A stretch of DNA of 64,000 nt from Aquimarina sp. Aq78. Lineage in GTDB: Bacteria; Bacteroidota; Bacteroidia; Flavobacteriales; Flavobacteriaceae. Positions within the stretch are counted from its first letter, which is position 1. Every line of letters starts with the position of its first letter. Of this stretch, positions 7,064-48,133 are shown piece after piece. The stretch covers positions 124,001 through 188,000 of the forward strand of contig NZ_OMKA01000026.1 of the NCBI RefSeq assembly GCF_900299525.1, written 5' to 3'. A program made the translations under genes and the position numbers. Below the pieces are notes generated by a model. That model was not told where the DNA came from, ran no database searches, and was given only the letters and a program-made list of their open reading frames with translations.

Positions 7064-9487
7064 CTAATTCAGATGTATTGTTTGAGTCTTGGATATCAAA
7101 CTTCCATCACTTCCCATTCCTTCAATAAAAAGTGTAATATTCTCTAAGTTGGTATTCTTAACCTTAAACGTTCCAAAGCCGTCCTTGTTAAAATCAACCC
7201 AAGGTTGCCAATGAATCAAACCATAATCTATAAATCCCAAATCAAGATAGTTTGAATATCCTGGATTATAAAACTCTTTAACAGGTTCAAATCCTTTTTC
7301 CATTGTGTATCCTACAGAATTTTCATCAATGTCAATTTTTGATCCTAAAGGAACTTTTCTAGTATATATCCTTATAGATGCCCCTGCACCCCCTCGGGCA
7401 CCCAAACCATAACTTATTTTATCAATATAAATTCTATCTACTTCATTAGTTCGTAATACTGTTAACATACTTTTATCGCCTCTTAACTCAACATTATCCA
7501 CAAATACAGGAACCTGAGTTGGAAAATTTATAGAACTTGGTGCACGGCTGTAAATAACTACATCTGAAGTAGCCGGTCTCTGATCGCGTATAAAAAAGCT
7601 TCCAACAGACTTAATATAGTCTAATATCACGGGAAAATCCCTAGCCATTCTAGGAGTAATTTTTTTAGAATTATTTTTAATGTATTTAAGCAATGGTACT
7701 TTACTTGTGTTTTCTGATTCTTCTTTACTTTTTGCCTTCAACAAAACTTCATCTAAAACCTCAACATTATCGGCAATAAACCCTTTAGGAATCTTTATGT
7801 TCTTGTTTATATTTTTGCTTTCTATATTATTTTGTTGTGAAATAACAATATCATTAAGTGGCTTTTTATGCTGATCTAATAGTATTTGCAAATATAATTT
7901 TGGTTCTACAAAAATATCATCAGAGGTTACCCCAGAAAGTTTAATTTCTTCTCCTTTTTCAGGAAAGAAATTAGGTAATTCAAAAGAATTTGTATTATCA
8001 ATATCAATAAAATTACCTTTTTGGTATGTAGTTGGATGCATATATAATTTATATATATCATCTTTGTTCTTACCTTGTATTTTTCCTTTTAGTTTATATC
8101 CCTGGTTAAATCCATACAACGTGTTAGGCTTATTATTAAAGATGGTATTCCAACTATACTTACTCCAGCCTTGAGTAATTAATAATAAATCAAGATCATA
8201 TCTTTTTTTTCTGTCTATATCAGTAAAATAATATATTTCATTCTCTATAAAACCTTTTAAGTAAGGTCGCAATACCATTGCCGAATAAATATTATCGTTT
8301 GGATTATATGATTTTGTACCTTCGGGTAATACAGAAATACTTAGATCATACCTAACTCCTTTTTTTGTAGGCACCTTGATATTTATCGATAAAGAATCTT
8401 TTATAGTCTTGTTGCTAGAAGCACTAATGTCCTCAACAATTTTATCAAAAGAATTAAACAATAATCTTTCTGCAATAGGGGTTTTCTCTTTAAATACGGT
8501 TAATGTATTTATTCCTGGATAAAACACGTCTCTTTTTAATGAAATCCTCCTTTTTACTTCGTTAGGTAAAAAATGCAAAGGGATTTTCTTAGATAAATGA
8601 TTTTGTTTAACTAATAAATAATAATGATCACCAGCTAAATCCTTTAATGTTCTTGTATTAGTATTAAGTTCTACCAACGTATGATCTGTTGCCATATTGT
8701 CAACTCTTATGGCTATTCCTTTATCATATATTTGAGGAAATGGTATTTGTATTTTCTCACCATTATTGAGTTCTACAATCGCTTTATATTTTTTATCTAA
8801 TCTTGGACGTATATTAAATTTGCCCATCCCAAATTTATTTGAACTAAATGAAATGATTTTATTTCCTTTATCATCAAAAACATAACCATTTTCAAAATGC
8901 ACTCCATAACCTCTACTATTAATCAGTTTAAAACCAACGCTATTATCTGTGTCTGAGACTAGATAACCACCTTCAGGAAGTAATTGAAAATCATATCTTA
9001 ACTTTTCTGTTAAAACTTTTTCAGGATTGGGTTCTTTTATGATCTCAATTTTCTTGGTATAGGATTCATCTTCTATGAAATTATTCATCCAATTCGTTGA
9101 TACTCTCATATAGTAATTACCATTATTCCAAGTAGAATCAATTTTTATATTACCTCTAAAATTACCTCTGGAACCAAAAAACAAACCATTATATAGTTCC
9201 TTTCCTTCCTGATTGAATAATTGAACATTAAAATTTGTTGAACCAAAAGATGGAAGATTATTTTGTCGATCATAAGCATAGCCTTTAAACCATACTTCTT
9301 CTCCATTAACGTAAGTGCTTTTGTCTAAATGCAAGTATAATGTTTCTCTAGGTATACTGAAGTAATCATTATTAGCTTGTTGTGCAGAGCGTGATAAACT
9401 ATTATTCTGAGCATTTAATCCTATTGAAAGAAAGAACAATAGTAGTATTGGTAAAAAATGATTCATAAGCCCGTATTTATATTTCAT
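7064..9487 (-). CDS. Exported protein with MG2-like N-terminal domain and TonB-receptor plug-like C-terminal domain
   Basis: This 807-residue protein has a signal peptide (the alternative start MNHFLPILLLFF is 7 codons in) ending near GLNAQ. The segment ETLYLHLDKSTYVNGEEVWF resembles the MG2 macroglobulin domain that follows signal peptides in Bacteroidota envelope proteins. Near the C-terminus, VPVFVDNVELRGDKSMLTVL and DRIYIDKISYGLGARGGAGA look like a TonB-dependent receptor plug, but no 22-strand barrel follows, so it is not a transporter. Such MG2-plug proteins occur widely in flavobacteria without a settled function. It may act as an outer-membrane-associated scaffold; that is a guess. 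Confidence 0.6.
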   Translation of the reverse strand: MKYKYGLMNHFLPILLLFFLSIGLNAQNNSLSRSAQQANNDYFSIPRETLYLHLDKSTYVNGEEVWFKGYAYDRQNNLPSFGSTNFNVQLFNQEGKELYNGLFFGSRGNFRGNIKIDSTWNNGNYYMRVSTNWMNNFIEDESYTKKIEIIKEPNPEKVLTEKLRYDFQLLPEGGYLVSDTDNSVGFKLINSRGYGVHFENGYVFDDKGNKIISFSSNKFGMGKFNIRPRLDKKYKAIVELNNGEKIQIPFPQIYDKGIAIRVDNMATDHTLVELNTNTRTLKDLAGDHYYLLVKQNHLSKKIPLHFLPNEVKRRISLKRDVFYPGINTLTVFKEKTPIAERLLFNSFDKIVEDISASSNKTIKDSLSINIKVPTKKGVRYDLSISVLPEGTKSYNPNDNIYSAMVLRPYLKGFIENEIYYFTDIDRKKRYDLDLLLITQGWSKYSWNTIFNNKPNTLYGFNQGYKLKGKIQGKNKDDIYKLYMHPTTYQKGNFIDIDNTNSFELPNFFPEKGEEIKLSGVTSDDIFVEPKLYLQILLDQHKKPLNDIVISQQNNIESKNINKNIKIPKGFIADNVEVLDEVLLKAKSKEESENTSKVPLLKYIKNNSKKITPRMARDFPVILDYIKSVGSFFIRDQRPATSDVVIYSRAPSSINFPTQVPVFVDNVELRGDKSMLTVLRTNEVDRIYIDKISYGLGARGGAGASIRIYTRKVPLGSKIDIDENSVGYTMEKGFEPVKEFYNPGYSNYLDLGFIDYGLIHWQPWVDFNKDGFGTFKVKNTNLENITLFIEGMGSDGSLISKTQTIHLN

Positions 9488-9600
9488 TTCTCTAGTATAT
9501 AAAAACCTTAAAACTAATAGAAATAAGATTAAACCGTTTTTTATAACTAGTTATCAATTAAAAACCAGTAGATATTAAATTTCTGCAATGTATATGAGGT

Positions 9601-10593
9601 CTAATCGAATTTTACCGTTTTTATAATTGCTTCAAGCTCAAATATATTATCTCTTTTACTTACCGAAGGAGCAAATACAAAGCCTTCTAATACCATTAAT
9701 CTATTATTAGCAATGTCTTCTATAACATAATTAACAAATGGACCTGCCATAAAACGATCTTTGATCTCCCAGGTTCCTTTGGTTTCGAAAGTAAATCTAT
9801 TGTCTAACTCAATTTCATAAAGATAAGGTGCATAAGCCTCTTCAGTAATGAAATGACCAACTTCTGGGGTAGGAATTTTCACTGTTCCCATAGAATCTCT
9901 CATTTTTATGATACTAGAAACTGTATTAGAATCTTTGGTAACCGTTCCTAGTGGTAATTCATAGATCATAAGATTCATACTGCCATGCTTAATATTTTTA
10001 CGAATCCAGAAAAACTGTTTTTCTTCAATAGCGATACGATAGGCTGAAGGGATCTTTAAAGTGATTCCCATTTTTTCTTGTAGCTGTGGAATCCTCTCTA
10101 AAGACTTTTTAATAATCGCTTGTTTTTCCTTAATTTCGATGGACTTATATTTCGAAATGATCTTTTCATGATTCTCTCGAATCAAAGTAGCAATATCTTC
10201 GTTTGTGGCTCCAGAGATTACTGCACCAATTTGAGGGTTAGAAAATTTGTTTTTTAATAATCCATATTTGTTTTCTCCTTCATTTTGTTTTTCAATCCAA
10301 AGAAAAATACGACTCTGTTTTGCGAGGCCAGTAAAAGTTTCCTTTGGCATTTGTCGCATTGTAAACAAAGGTTCTTCTTGAGGTAAACCCGGTACTTCGG
10401 CTCCAAAATATTTTCTAATGGTATCACCAATAGTACTGTTCCATAGTTCATTATCTATAACTACAGAAAGATGATTTATTCTTCCATTAGAGTGCGCCAT
10501 AGATTCCTGGCTCTTCTGGTTTTTATCTTTTTTAACCTCTGTACAGCTAACAATACAAAGCATGCAAATAATTGCGAGGGATAATTTTTTCAT
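9601..10593 (-). CDS. DUF4837 family lipoprotein
   Basis: A 330-residue protein with a lipoprotein signal peptide (MKKLSLAIICMLCIVSC, lipobox Cys at residue 17). The remainder is soluble and resembles the Bacteroidota DUF4837 family; landmarks are NHLSVVIDNELWNSTIGDTI and the closing region LMVLEGFVFAPSVSKRDNIF. It begins 20 bases after the stop of the upstream MltD-like gene, so the pair is likely cotranscribed, which hints at a cell-envelope role. The biochemical function is unknown. Confidence 0.75.
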   Translation of the reverse strand: MKKLSLAIICMLCIVSCTEVKKDKNQKSQESMAHSNGRINHLSVVIDNELWNSTIGDTIRKYFGAEVPGLPQEEPLFTMRQMPKETFTGLAKQSRIFLWIEKQNEGENKYGLLKNKFSNPQIGAVISGATNEDIATLIRENHEKIISKYKSIEIKEKQAIIKKSLERIPQLQEKMGITLKIPSAYRIAIEEKQFFWIRKNIKHGSMNLMIYELPLGTVTKDSNTVSSIIKMRDSMGTVKIPTPEVGHFITEEAYAPYLYEIELDNRFTFETKGTWEIKDRFMAGPFVNYVIEDIANNRLMVLEGFVFAPSVSKRDNIFELEAIIKTVKFD

Positions 10594-39322: not shown

Positions 39323-40174
39323 TTAGTCGTTTTTAAGAATGTAAATGTGCGAAGAATACTCACCAGATCGTTTTGCTTTAAGATTAGAACGTAATCCAAT
39401 CCAAAAAGCATTTAAAAAGTTCATTTTACCACTTTTGTACTTTTCGGATAAAAGTGACACATAAAATGAATCAAACTTCATAGGAAGTATTTTTTCCAAT
39501 TTTAAATTTTCTTCTTCAAAAAGTTTTTGGATAGAAGTTTTAGAAAAATGCCAAAGGTGTCTGGGCACATCATATGCTGCCCAAAACGAATTATATTGTT
39601 TTGCATCATATGACTTAAAATTTGGTACGGCTATAATCACAAATCCATTTGGTTTTAAAAGACGTCTTAATTCTCTAATTTGAAGTTGCAAATCTGGTAT
39701 ATGCTCTAAAACATGCCACATCGTAATAACATCAAAACTTTTCGAATCCAAATTAGCCGTTTCGGGTTTTAAATCAATTCCTTTTTGTTTTGCTAGTTCT
39801 TTTGCTTGATTATTTGGTTCTACTCCTTCGATTCTCCAGCCTTTATTTTTTGCTGCACTTAAAAAATCTCCTGTACCTGCTCCAATATCCAAAAGTACAC
39901 CTCGTTGTTGATTTAACTTAGAAATAAGTTTAACCTTTTTGTTTAAAGAATAGGTTTTAACTAAGTGGTATAGTTTTTCAAAAAGAGATCGTTTGGAATC
40001 TGTATGAGAAATATAATCTTCACTCTCGTAATATTTACCCAATTCTTTTTCATTAGGTTTCGGAGAGGTAACCAACATATCATATTCTTTATCATAAAGC
40101 AACTGAAACTTTTCTCCAGAAACCGTATAATCTTTACATTCGATAAAAAAATCTAAGGTTTTTTGTGTATTCAT
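39323..40174 (-). CDS. Class I SAM-dependent methyltransferase
   Basis: This 283-residue protein carries the SAM-binding loop LLDIGAGTGDFLSAAKNKG, followed by the acidic EGVEPNN ribose contact and the post-motif TMWHVLEHIPDL. N-terminal residues 1-90 and the C-terminal tail are outside the core. Such methyltransferases modify small molecules, glycolipids or other substrates; the substrate is not evident here. It follows the small lipoprotein gene by 18 bases and is probably in the mnmG-containing run. Confidence 0.85.
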   Translation of the reverse strand: MNTQKTLDFFIECKDYTVSGEKFQLLYDKEYDMLVTSPKPNEKELGKYYESEDYISHTDSKRSLFEKLYHLVKTYSLNKKVKLISKLNQQRGVLLDIGAGTGDFLSAAKNKGWRIEGVEPNNQAKELAKQKGIDLKPETANLDSKSFDVITMWHVLEHIPDLQLQIRELRRLLKPNGFVIIAVPNFKSYDAKQYNSFWAAYDVPRHLWHFSKTSIQKLFEEENLKLEKILPMKFDSFYVSLLSEKYKSGKMNFLNAFWIGLRSNLKAKRSGEYSSHIYILKND

Positions 40175-40726: not shown

Positions 40727-40742
40727 TGTTCCACGTGGAACT
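40727..40742. promoter_or_regulatory. parS-type site (15 of 16 bases)
   Basis: TGTTCCACGTGGAACT differs from the palindromic TGTTCCACGTGGAACA only in its final base. It occupies the gap between two genes and overlaps the stop codon of the 159-residue membrane protein. See the 43,106-43,209 cluster. Confidence 0.7.
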
Positions 40743-41220
40743 ATTCTTTAGATCTGTCATAAATTTCAACTCCCAAAAGTTCACTTAACTCATTAGCCTT
40801 CTTATAGGCCTTCCCATATTTTTCTGTTTTATAAAGTGTAAAATTCTTGTTTCCCGAAAAAAAACGAATTACAATTTTACTATGTCTTTCTTTTGTTCCA
40901 ATTGCACTAACAGCACCCCACTCATTATCTAAACTAAAAGAAGTTGTAAAAATGGAAATATAATCAGGATATTCTAAATCGAGTTTTGTTTCAAAAATAG
41001 GGAATCCAAAAAGCGAAAAAAGTTTTTGATTATTAAAATCTCTATTGATTTTATAAGAAACAGAATATCCAAATACTCCTAAAGATAAAAGTAAAAAGAT
41101 CAATCTGGATAAAAGTGGTTCCTCTGTATAAAAAAGAAAGGCAATAGCAATTACTAAAATCAGAATAGAAAGAATTCTTCCTTTTACAGGTTTTTCTTGT
41201 TCACAAAGCACACTATTCAT
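40741..41220 (-). CDS. Small membrane protein, family unknown
   Basis: Using the ATG at 41220 gives 159 residues. Two hydrophobic helices lie at about 16-33 and 37-54, then a soluble C-terminal domain of about 100 residues (FGFPIFETKLDLEYPDYISI; EWGAVSAIGTKERHSKIVIR; TLYKTEKYGKAYKKANELSE). The mnmG stop and this ATG overlap as TGATG, which indicates translational coupling; a GTG one codon upstream is a less likely start. I do not recognise a family. A PH-like or immunity-like role is not supported. Confidence 0.7.
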   Translation of the reverse strand: MNSVLCEQEKPVKGRILSILILVIAIAFLFYTEEPLLSRLIFLLLSLGVFGYSVSYKINRDFNNQKLFSLFGFPIFETKLDLEYPDYISIFTTSFSLDNEWGAVSAIGTKERHSKIVIRFFSGNKNFTLYKTEKYGKAYKKANELSELLGVEIYDRSKE

Positions 41221-43091
41221 CACCTACCCATATAAACCAAAAGTACAGAAATATCACTTGGCGATACTCCGCTAATTCGTGATGCTTGAGAAACGGTTGC
41301 TGGTTTTATTTTAGACATTTTCTCTCTTGCTTCAAAAGACAAAGATTTCAATTTTGTATAGTCAAAATTCTTAGGGATTTTTACATCCTCGAGTCTGTTT
41401 AGTTTATCTGCATTATTTTTTTCTTTTTCTATATAGCCCGAATATTTAACCTGAATCTCTGTTTGTTCTAAAACCTCTTTATCCAAATCATTCTCCTCTA
41501 TATATGTAGAAACTTTCTCAAAATGTTTTATATCATCCAAAGTAATCTGTGGTCGAGAAAATAATTTAAATAGTTTCCCGCTCTGATTAATAGGTGAAGT
41601 TTTCTTTTCTTCTAAAACAGGATTTGCTTCTTCTGGAGTAACACTCGTATCCTTAAAAAACTGAACAAAGGCACTTGCCTTCTTTTCCTTCTCTTCCATT
41701 CTTTTCATTCGTTCATCTGAAGCTAAACCAATCTCATGAGATTTTGGTGTTAGTCTAAAATCTGCATTATCTTGTCTTAATAAAGTTCTATACTCTGCAC
41801 GAGAAGTAAACATTCGATATGGTTCTTCTGTACCTTTAGTTATAAGATCATCTATTAAAACACCGATATAAGCTTCGCTCCTTTTAAGAATAAAAGATTC
41901 TTTTTCTTTCACTTTTAGCGCGGCATTTATTCCTGCCATTAATCCTTGAGAAGCTGCTTCTTCATATCCAGTTGTTCCATTAATTTGCCCCGCAAAAAAT
42001 AACCCAGAAATCAATTTCGTTTCTAAGGTGTGTGTTAATTGTGTTGGAGGAAAATAATCATATTCTATAGCATATCCTGGTCTAAAAAACTTTACATTTT
42101 CAAAACCTACTACAGATTTCAAAGCTTTAAATTGAACATCCTCTGGTAAGGATGTAGAAAATCCGTTTACATAAACTTCTACCGTATTCCACCCTTCGGG
42201 TTCTACAAACAATTGATGTCTTTCTTTATCTGCAAATCTATTAATCTTATCCTCTATAGATGGACAATATCTTGGTCCAATACTTTTAATTCTACCATTA
42301 AACATTGGAGAACGATCAAAGCCTTCTCGTAACAAATCATGAACCTCTAAAGAAGTATATGTCATATGACATGATCTCTGTTTGGTGAGCGGTTTTGTTA
42401 CATCTGTATAGCAAAATTTCTCAGGATTATCATCTCCTGGTTGTTCAATCATTTTAGAATAATCCAAAGATCTTCCATCCACTCTAGGAGGTGTTCCTGT
42501 TTTCATTCTTCCAGCATCAAAACCAAAATCAATCAATTGTTCTGTTATACCGGTTGCAGCTTTTTCGCCAGCTCTACCTCCGCCAAATTGTTTTTCTCCA
42601 ATATGGATTAATCCATTCAAAAATGTTCCGTTAGTCAACACAACAGTCTTTGCTTTTATCTCAATTCCTAAAGACGTTTGTACTCCTTTTATTTCTCCGT
42701 TTTCAACCAAAAGTCCGCTCACCATTTCCTGGTAAAAATCCAAATTAGGAGTTTGCTCTAACAGCAACCTCCATTCTTCTGCAAAACGCATTCTGTCACT
42801 TTGAACCCTTGGGCTCCACATTGCAGGTCCTTTTGATTTATTCAACATTTTAAATTGTATGGCAGTACGATCACTCACTATTCCACTATACCCACCAAGT
42901 GCATCAATCTCTCTTACAATTTGCCCTTTTGCAATTCCACCCATAGCCGGGTTACAACTCATTTGAGCAATGTTCTGCAAATTCATTGTAATAAGTAAAG
43001 TGCTACAACCTAAATTGGCAGCTGACGCTGCCGCTTCACTTCCTGCATGGCCTGCTCCAACTACTATTACATCATACTCCGTATCAAACAT
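41220..43091 (-). CDS. mnmG: tRNA uridine-5-carboxymethylaminomethyl modification enzyme, FAD-binding subunit
   Basis: This 623-residue protein is full length. It opens with the FAD-binding VIVVGAGHAGSEAAASAANL motif, then NPAMGGIAKGQIVREIDALG and GLFFAGQINGTTGYEEAASQ, the conserved GidA motif. With MnmE it installs the cmnm5 group on wobble uridine 34. mnmG is commonly near the replication origin. It sits between ybeY upstream and the 159-residue membrane protein, which is coupled to it by TGATG. Three parS-type palindromes occupy the 98-base gap to ybeY. Confidence 0.96.
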   Translation of the reverse strand: MFDTEYDVIVVGAGHAGSEAAASAANLGCSTLLITMNLQNIAQMSCNPAMGGIAKGQIVREIDALGGYSGIVSDRTAIQFKMLNKSKGPAMWSPRVQSDRMRFAEEWRLLLEQTPNLDFYQEMVSGLLVENGEIKGVQTSLGIEIKAKTVVLTNGTFLNGLIHIGEKQFGGGRAGEKAATGITEQLIDFGFDAGRMKTGTPPRVDGRSLDYSKMIEQPGDDNPEKFCYTDVTKPLTKQRSCHMTYTSLEVHDLLREGFDRSPMFNGRIKSIGPRYCPSIEDKINRFADKERHQLFVEPEGWNTVEVYVNGFSTSLPEDVQFKALKSVVGFENVKFFRPGYAIEYDYFPPTQLTHTLETKLISGLFFAGQINGTTGYEEAASQGLMAGINAALKVKEKESFILKRSEAYIGVLIDDLITKGTEEPYRMFTSRAEYRTLLRQDNADFRLTPKSHEIGLASDERMKRMEEKEKKASAFVQFFKDTSVTPEEANPVLEEKKTSPINQSGKLFKLFSRPQITLDDIKHFEKVSTYIEENDLDKEVLEQTEIQVKYSGYIEKEKNNADKLNRLEDVKIPKNFDYTKLKSLSFEAREKMSKIKPATVSQASRISGVSPSDISVLLVYMGR

Positions 43092-43105: not shown

Positions 43106-43121
43106 TGTTCCACGTGGAACA
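43106..43121. promoter_or_regulatory. parS-type centromere site 1 (perfect palindrome)
   Basis: TGTTCCACGTGGAACA, a perfect 16-bp palindrome that matches the ParB-binding parS consensus used in many bacteria. It lies 15 bases upstream of the mnmG start. Confidence 0.8.
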
Positions 43122-43144
43122 TAAATTTATTAATCAAAAATAAT

Positions 43145-43160
43145 TGTTCCACGTGGAACA
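43145..43160. promoter_or_regulatory. parS-type centromere site 2 (in a 28-bp palindrome)
   Basis: The same 16-bp palindrome as site 1. The self-complementarity extends to 28 bp (43139-43166), because AT-rich flanks also match. Confidence 0.8.
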
Positions 43161-43189
43161 ATTATTACTTTATACATTATCATAATGCA

Positions 43190-43609
43190 CTAATGTTCCA
43201 CGTGGAACATTAGTAATTTTTCTTCTTCTTTTTGTCTCATAAGACTTTCGTCTATATCAGACTTATCCTTATATCCACAAAAATGTAGTACCCCATGTAT
43301 CAAAACACGTCTCATTTCCTCCTCCTCAGAAACCATAAATTCATTAGCATTATCCTTTACTCTTTCCGCAGAAATAAATATATCACCATTTAATTGGTTA
43401 CCTATTGTATTGTCAAAACTTATGACATCCGTAAATGTGTCGTGATCCAAAAAGTCCTGATTTATTTTAAGCAAGTATTTATCATCACACAAGATGAAAT
43501 TAATCTCTCCTTCTGACTTATTTTCTGATAATATAACTGCATTAATCCAAGAAGATAACGCGGCTTCGTTGGGTAGTTTTATGTTCGTTTCGTAAAAAAA
43601 ATTAATCAT
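43190..43609 (-). CDS. ybeY: Endoribonuclease YbeY (rRNA maturation)
   Basis: A 139-residue protein. It is shorter than E. coli YbeY (155) and ends in HGVLHFCGYKDKSD. The first two zinc-binding His of HGxLHLxGYDH are present, but the third His is replaced by Asp in GYKD. YbeY processes the 3' end of 16S rRNA and supports ribosome quality control. The gene overlaps the DUF4175 gene by 8 bases (43602-43609), and its last codons lie in parS site 3. Ending in MFHVEH reflects the palindrome and not a protein domain. Confidence 0.9.
   Translation of the reverse strand: MINFFYETNIKLPNEAALSSWINAVILSENKSEGEINFILCDDKYLLKINQDFLDHDTFTDVISFDNTIGNQLNGDIFISAERVKDNANEFMVSEEEEMRRVLIHGVLHFCGYKDKSDIDESLMRQKEEEKLLMFHVEH
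43194..43209. promoter_or_regulatory. parS-type centromere site 3 (overlaps the end of ybeY)
   Basis: A third copy of the 16-bp palindrome, extended to 26 bp (43189-43214). It encodes the last residues of YbeY (MFHVEH) on the minus strand. Confidence 0.8.
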
Positions 43610-47092: not shown

Positions 47093-48133
47093 ATGAAAGA
47101 TCTTAAATATATTTGTGCATACACAATACCTTTTATGGCTATTATTGGTATCTGGTTACAAGGAATTTACACTTACCTAACTCCTATATATGCTTTTGGT
47201 TTAATTCCTATATTAGAATTATTTACAGATTCATCTATCAAAAACGTAGACAATAATGACAAAATATTACAATCAAAAAAAAAGATATTTGATTGGATGC
47301 TTTATGTCAATCTTCCCATTGTTTATGGTGTTTTACTCTTTGCTATTATCACTTGTACTACATCAAATCTAGATACGTATGAAGTAGTCGGTATTATTAT
47401 TTCCTTAGGAATCGTATTAGGATCAAATGGTATAAATGTAGGACATGAGTTAGGACATCGATTTACCAAAGAGCGTTATATTGGTAAAGCACTTCTCCTA
47501 CCATCTTTATATATGCATTTTTATATAGAACATAATTTTGGTCACCACAATATGGTTGCAACAAAAGAAGATCCTGCCACCGCACGATACAATCAGCCTG
47601 TATATTCTTTTTGGATAACTTCAACTATCCGACAATACATTAGCGCTTGGAAAATACAATTCAAATTATTAAAACAAAACAATCTAGGATTCTTCTCTAT
47701 AAAAAATGATATGCTCTGGTATTTTTTAATCACCCTTTCATATCTTATGATACTTACATATTTCTTTGATCTTTATGGGTTGCTAATTGTAGTTTTAAGC
47801 GGAATAACAGGATTCTTATTACTTGAAACTATAAATTATATTGAGCATTATGGTTTGATGAGAATAAAAAATTCTTCTGGTCGCTATGAACGTGTGAGAG
47901 AAATTCATTCCTGGAACTCGAACCATACCTTAGGCAGAATTATGTTATATGAATTAACACGACATAGTGATCATCATCATAGAGCGTCAAAAAAATATCA
48001 GATTCTGGATCATTATGATAACAGTCCTCAATTACCTTTTGGTTATCCAACATCCATGGTGTTATCACTACTTCCTCCCCTATGGTTTTTTATTATGAAT
48101 AAACATGTTCCACGTGAAATGAAAAGTATTTAA
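47093..48133 (+). CDS. AlkB-like integral membrane non-haem diiron alkane monooxygenase/fatty-acid desaturase
   Basis: The 346-residue protein has four to six hydrophobic segments and the four His clusters of the AlkB family: NVGHELGHRF (about 117-126), EHNFGHHNMVATKEDPATAR (about 143-162), NYIEHYGL (about 245) and RHSDHHHRASKKYQIL (about 290). These bind two irons. AlkB enzymes hydroxylate the terminal methyl of medium-chain alkanes, and related flavobacterial proteins may act on other lipids. Rubredoxin is not adjacent. The gene is divergent from the DUF4175 operon. A near -7 sequence (TATATTTA) lies about 40 bases upstream. Confidence 0.78.
   Translation: MKDLKYICAYTIPFMAIIGIWLQGIYTYLTPIYAFGLIPILELFTDSSIKNVDNNDKILQSKKKIFDWMLYVNLPIVYGVLLFAIITCTTSNLDTYEVVGIIISLGIVLGSNGINVGHELGHRFTKERYIGKALLLPSLYMHFYIEHNFGHHNMVATKEDPATARYNQPVYSFWITSTIRQYISAWKIQFKLLKQNNLGFFSIKNDMLWYFLITLSYLMILTYFFDLYGLLIVVLSGITGFLLLETINYIEHYGLMRIKNSSGRYERVREIHSWNSNHTLGRIMLYELTRHSDHHHRASKKYQILDHYDNSPQLPFGYPTSMVLSLLPPLWFFIMNKHVPREMKSI

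Follow-up and report, generated by a model that had tools for sequence, protein, structure and literature searches.

The 64,000-nucleotide stretch of Aquimarina sp. Aq78 DNA analyzed here (the window; bases 124001-188000 of the 725,336 on contig 16) carries a group of 16-bp palindromes around the genes mnmG and ybeY, which raises the question of what these elements are for. A first-pass annotation had read them as ParB-binding parS sites and their surroundings as probably the main segregation locus of the chromosome. Judged from sequence, the four sites are very probably the parS sites of a chromosomal ParABS system, that is, a predicted chromosomal centromere.

parS-type sites and parAB genes in the genome

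A pattern search recovered three perfect palindromes and one near-perfect copy at exactly the annotated positions (Table 1). As had been proposed from the sequence, the palindromes fit the parS consensus of ParB, each with an exact NGTTYCACGTGRAACN-type match; TGTTCCACGTGGAACA is also the parS of P. putida, and that of M. xanthus is TGTTCCACGTGGAACG (PMC7022226). The three perfect sites follow each other at start-to-start spacings of 39 and 49 bp, and all four span 2.5 kb. The perfect sites had been placed between mnmG and ybeY, which holds for sites 1 and 2, whereas site 3 lies inside the final codons of ybeY. Downstream of mnmG, site 4 touches the stop codon of an ORF of 160 aa. Since this ORF, which looks membrane-protein-like by eye, is placed between the two, the downstream site stands ~0.5 kb away from mnmG.

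Table 1 Features of the mnmG-ybeY locus in the window.
Feature	Coordinates	Strand	Description
parS site 1	43106..43121	.	perfect TGTTCCACGTGGAACA palindrome, mnmG-ybeY gap
parS site 2	43145..43160	.	perfect TGTTCCACGTGGAACA palindrome, mnmG-ybeY gap
parS site 3	43194..43209	.	perfect TGTTCCACGTGGAACA palindrome in final ybeY codons; codes for the FHVEH tail before the stop
parS site 4	40727..40742	.	TGTTCCACGTGGAACT; one mismatch (outermost base), exact core; 3' of mnmG
mnmG (gidA)	41220..43091	-	623 aa; TIGR00136, 857 bits (cut-off 525); parS sites on both sides
ybeY	43190..43609	-	139 aa; TIGR00043, 103 bits (cut-off 45); upstream of mnmG
160-aa ORF	40741..41223	-	no Pfam or NCBIfam match; between mnmG and downstream parS
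SAM-dependent methyltransferase	39323..40174	-	conserved downstream neighbor of mnmG

Allowing up to three mismatches, the window contains 5 matches, compared with a mean of 0.15 and a maximum of 1 in 100 dinucleotide shuffles. Across the whole genome (5,969,234 bases, 37 contigs), a search at up to two mismatches returned these four places only; the reversed control pattern gave one match per strand. The sites are few and clustered in one region of the chromosome, with no scatter of the 16-mer elsewhere, and chance is therefore a poor explanation, as the first-pass annotation had argued. A weaker parS-like site with three mismatches (TGTTCCACGTGAAATG, 48106-48121) lies 5 kb from the cluster, where it falls within the end of a fatty-acid-desaturase-like gene. 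Of 80 relatives, only locus L104 showed a site of up to two mismatches about 5 kb upstream of mnmG.

The parS reading had been made dependent on a ParB gene, and the genome holds one match to the ParB HTH family. The encoded protein of 304 aa lies directly after parA, on contig 18 and not on contig 16 with the parS sites. ParB_N, HTH_ParB and ParB_C all score over their cut-offs, TIGR00180 is matched with 172.6 bits (cut-off 58.45), and the motif GERRFRA can be read by eye in the translation, so that the N-terminal CTPase motif, the HTH and the C-terminal dimerization domain are all present. The adjoining ParA (L025:8874-9638) contains KGGVGKTT and matches PF13614 (AAA_31) with 230.8 bits, as a Walker-type ParA does.

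Alignments to solved structures place the recognition helix of ParB at GKKRSTIANYLRLLKL, with SMGHGRAL further on. The residues equivalent to Caulobacter positions 173 and 201 are R and G, those equivalent to 179 and 184 are Y and K, and the equivalent of 172 is K; this numbering was set by eye from the GK.R...N and GH.R motifs, both conserved, as the five alignments shown do not include the Caulobacter chain. At positions 173 and 201, ParB has R and G where Noc has Q and R, positions 179 and 184 vary among ParB proteins and are almost always K in Noc, and position 172 is a conserved S (PMC7383237). An identity as Noc with NBS sites was rejected, the specificity residues being R and G rather than Q and R; the Noc model TIGR04285 gave 243.2 bits, under its cut-off of 315.

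The partner complex Smc-ScpAB was sought as well. In the own genome the best Smc match to TIGR02168 reached 27.6 bits against a cut-off of 567, with 10 of 14 control genomes scoring over it. ScpA (PF02616) was found in none of 60 genomes of the family, the own one included, and was positive in 9 of 14 control genomes. A ParB-loaded Smc-ScpAB was thus not recovered, as far as Smc in this genome and ScpA in the family are concerned, which makes a role of ParB as Smc loader doubtful here. The lineage appears to have kept ParB-parS without Smc-ScpAB.

Conservation beside mnmG and within ybeY

A scan of named genomes with MnmG confirmed at least 592 stretches, the best 80 of which (68-83% identity) were used; as only the best matches were kept, this sample leans to close relatives. 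Within it, the synteny of parS with mnmG and ybeY, which had been proposed as a check, is clear: 78/80 loci have an exact NGTTYCACGTGRAACN core no more than 700 bp from mnmG, upstream in 75, downstream in 68 and on both sides in 65. ybeY stands directly upstream of mnmG on the same strand in 78/80, and a homolog of the methyltransferase lies within 2.5 kb of mnmG in 74/80. The remaining 1.33 Mb of flanking DNA contain just 8 further sites, seven of them 0.96-1.19 kb upstream of mnmG in L038 and L074, and the eighth in L085, 2.8 kb past the start of mnmG. When 75 loci were aligned on the nearest upstream site, the core carried 2.07 bits of information per column versus 0.09-0.14 in the flanks. 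Over 1.59 Mb in all, 187 cores were counted versus 0 for the reversed pattern. Among these cores, 69 are not self-complementary, e.g., GTTCCACGTGAAAC.

The two loci with no exact site at mnmG are L088, from a Capnocytophaga MAG, and L105. Variants of parS with a changed center (CACATG, CACAAG or CTCGTG) occur beside mnmG in L063, L075, L073, L077, L078, L076 and L081, from Kordia, Tenacibaculum, Polaribacter and others. At 8812-9941, locus L038 (Flavobacterium sp. MC2016-06) holds six consensus sites spaced 39-51 bp apart and, after them, a tandem array of 117-bp units with the changed-center site TGTTCCACATGGAACA in each unit; this looks like an amplification of parS in which one variant spread via duplication. 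A further recurrent element, TCTTCCACGTGAAACA, is found 6.4-7.4 kb after the mnmG start in L030, L031, L034, L035 and L045. There it encodes the peptide LPRET of a protein that, judged by eye, resembles a lytic transglycosylase with LysM-like repeats, and its recurrence is probably due to protein constraint rather than to parS.

The core extends well beyond close relatives. In single-contig genomes of the family it is present in 31/32, and mnmG is present in 29 of the 30 of these parS loci that were listed; at the exception, L142, the adjoining ORFs resemble by eye the methyltransferase and OmpH-like genes of the window. The one complete relative lacking the exact core, G394, has both a ParB HTH and DnaA, and the ParB HTH is found in 249/249 genomes of the family. 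In a sample of the class, 264/296 genomes contain the core, most commonly two copies per genome (by eye), and the reversed control matches 9 genomes (read by eye). The 32 class genomes without an exact core include all seven sampled of family f39 and all three of f62 (counted by eye). Among the class matches listed, 30 loci from six families have mnmG within a stretch of ~3 kb in 28 cases and the methyltransferase in the other two. When 30 core-positive genomes were selected, one from each of thirty families, mnmG lay within the ~3-kb locus in 26; the four other loci had ybeY (one), the methyltransferase (two) or, in L268, none of nine probe proteins. In the phylum sample the core is present in 140/148 genomes and absent in 8/148. 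The relatives without the consensus (L088, L105, G394, f39 and f62) may have lost the sites, or these may have diverged or changed place. Genome G030 has 12 cores on four contigs; at L251 1500-2121 a core starts each of about six 99-bp units of a tandem array, and two of the four contigs end at or near such copies.

The overlap between parS and ybeY was followed by tblastn, with sub-counts made by eye. An exact site lies within the final 40 nt of ybeY in 46/78 loci, and FHV, mostly as FHVE or FHVK, is present in 44 of the 46 tails printed, the two others being in another frame; one of the 44, that of L090, has stop codons in the frame as printed, which makes it uncertain. YbeY of the window ends in ...LLMFHVEH-stop. 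In 26 of the other 32 loci parS follows the ybeY stop within about 100 bases. L079 and L104 have it deeper inside the ybeY frame as read, and L063, L075, L091 and L105 have no exact site near ybeY. No FHV occurs in a ybeY tail lacking an exact site (78 loci, by eye), so that YbeY seems able to do without the tail, whose presence goes with that of the DNA site. L063 and L075 end in FHMEQ, with the changed center CACATG in all of their upstream sites, and each keeps one consensus parS downstream. A comparison of codon usage in the FHVE tails is weak, as tails chosen by the exact site have its codons by construction. Predicted centromere site and protein-coding sequence plainly coincide at the end of ybeY.

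Position relative to the replication origin

Along the window the cumulative GC skew of contig 16 declines; its minimum, at 196 kb, lies 29 kb from the parS cluster, and a second, near-equal one at 244 kb lies 77 kb from parS. Four single-contig genomes of the family were sampled for skew with twenty 20-kb stretches each. In all four, parS was the closest of the three loci to the best-fit switch, at 5 to ~400 kb, compared with 0.92-2.15 Mb for dnaA or parB. Switches forced to lie at parS scored 0.65-1.16, compared with -0.42 to 0.36 at dnaA or parB, and in three of the four a switch exactly at parS scored somewhat below the best fit. For G407 the distance between parS and the switch is 189-399 kb as estimated by coarse sampling. 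Denser reading put the skew minimum of G448 at 45 kb from parS, with the preceding 100 kb nearly flat, and that of G253 at 85 kb or more, the skew still dropping at the end of the stretch. As judged by GC skew, which is an indirect measure, the sites lie near the replication origin.

Complete genomes place dnaA and parAB elsewhere. The distance between parS and dnaA is 0.81-2.03 Mb (median 1.21) in 31/31, and that between parS and parB is 0.62-1.54 Mb (median 1.12) in the 26 with a listed parB; most of the genome lengths behind these values are rounded to 0.1 Mb. Of these 31 complete genomes, all with a parS site, 14 have dnaA within 30 kb of base 1. In many other bacteria mnmG, gidB and parAB are grouped near the origin. 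On that view, mnmG and parS would be what remained of the group. The description of mnmG as a classical origin-side gene agrees with the skew, but dnaA and parAB, two further classical origin-side features, are located ~0.6-2.0 Mb from parS in complete relatives.

In a search for clusters of DnaA boxes with three patterns over 360 kb of contig 16, none of the 600-bp windows listed contained two or more boxes of any one pattern, and no oriC is claimed. The skew minimum falls into the same syntenic stretch in two genera, namely L016 11224-17349 (contig 16, ~191-197 kb) and 1.396-1.400 Mb of G448. The genes near it are divergent, with matches that stay below cut-off to a potassium/proton-antiporter family and a lactonase-type hydrolase family. 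This shared stretch is no more than a lead, a candidate region in which oriC might be sought.

A probable centromere beside mnmG and its alternatives

The assignment to ParABS draws on computed observations: the genome has these sites and no others like them, relatives conserve them between unconserved flanks, ParA and ParB genes are present, and the skew-defined origin is close; ParB binding, clamp spreading and segregation are what we infer from these. Weighing against the assignment are the loose distance between parS and the skew switch and the relatives in which no exact core occurs. One alternative is that a transcription factor for mnmG and ybeY uses the palindromes as operators and that their likeness to parS is incidental. 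Two of the four sites are indeed intergenic and upstream of mnmG, as operators might be. However, sites also occur downstream of mnmG (68/80 loci), inside the ybeY end (46/78) and, in other lineages, in overlap with the downstream methyltransferase gene; how many there are, how they are spaced and how far they lie from the start codon differs between loci, and the core is the consensus of ParB, a protein of all 249 family genomes. The operator reading is therefore extremely improbable. That they act as RNA hairpins, for instance as terminators between genes, is scarcely credible: it is true that perfect copies of the 16-mer are self-complementary and that gene ends hold several of the sites, but in the asymmetric cores (69/187, such as GTTCCACGTGAAAC) a pair is broken with the ParB consensus still met, and what is conserved is sequence beyond mere pairing. 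An RNA stem accounts for the asymmetry less well than two ParB half-sites do.

The sites might also bind ParB and yet represent a remnant or secondary locus, with the true segregation locus elsewhere. This explanation shares ParB binding with the preferred one, so that the two are not fully exclusive. The remoteness of dnaA and parAB from parS speaks for it, as does the failure to find Smc-ScpAB (Smc in the own genome, ScpA in 60 family genomes). Against it, the genome offers no further site at up to two mismatches, parS is strongly conserved at mnmG (78/80 loci), and in 4/4 relatives parS lies closer to the skew origin than dnaA or parB does, the distance in this genome being 29 kb. We regard a mere remnant as very unlikely. 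Together with the ParB gene, the same three lines, uniqueness, conservation at mnmG and the nearby skew origin, support the earlier suggestion of a main segregation locus, which stays a prediction.

The best account of the locus is an otherwise ordinary ParABS centromere in an unusual place, beside mnmG, with dnaA and parAB elsewhere. ParB, encoded together with ParA at a distance, would bind the four parS sites, load there as a CTP-dependent clamp and then spread. ParA would move the ParB-parS complex, so that segregation would begin with the freshly replicated origin region. The site overlapping the ybeY end would double as coding DNA and give YbeY its FHVE-type tail. Without Smc-ScpAB, ParB would act mainly through ParA, probably, or through some other partner.

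Whether this extends to all Bacteroidota could go either way. The mnmG/ybeY locus may be a fixed centromere that outlasted the dispersal of dnaA and parAB, with parS also forming the YbeY tail and ParB-parS working without Smc-ScpAB via ParA or another loop extruder; this generalization builds on gene context within the class, ScpA in the family and Smc in this genome. The presence of parS beside mnmG gives an easy, sequence-only marker of the origin region in a large group, and a correct origin is needed for growth-rate estimates from read coverage, for Hi-C and for gene-dosage studies. The sequence class of parS and the marking of origins by parS are already known; within the literature searched, the breadth of the parS-mnmG linkage and the overlap of parS with ybeY are new.

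Compared with chromosomal ParABS systems that use TGTTNCACGTGNAACA-type parS, the locus shares the same 16-mer, the near-origin cluster and canonical ParA and ParB domains. It differs in that parAB and dnaA are distant (medians of 1.1 and 1.2 Mb in complete relatives) and in that no Smc-ScpAB was found here. In gut bacteria including Bacteroides caecimuris and Muribaculum intestinale, parS clusters mark the origin, which does not always coincide with dnaA, and neither of these two Bacteroidetes yielded a known condensin (PMC10197239). The parS passages of that study do not name mnmG or ybeY, whereas here the gene context is described across sampled families of the class. For the flavobacterium Mariniflexile litorale, Ori-Finder predicted oriC beside mnmG, with dnaA at odds with the GC skew (PMC11278836); a figure legend of that report labels mnmG as ter, against its own text. 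Its origin passages do not discuss parS. The prediction is an independent report, in one flavobacterium, of a predicted oriC on the mnmG side and a dnaA off the skew.
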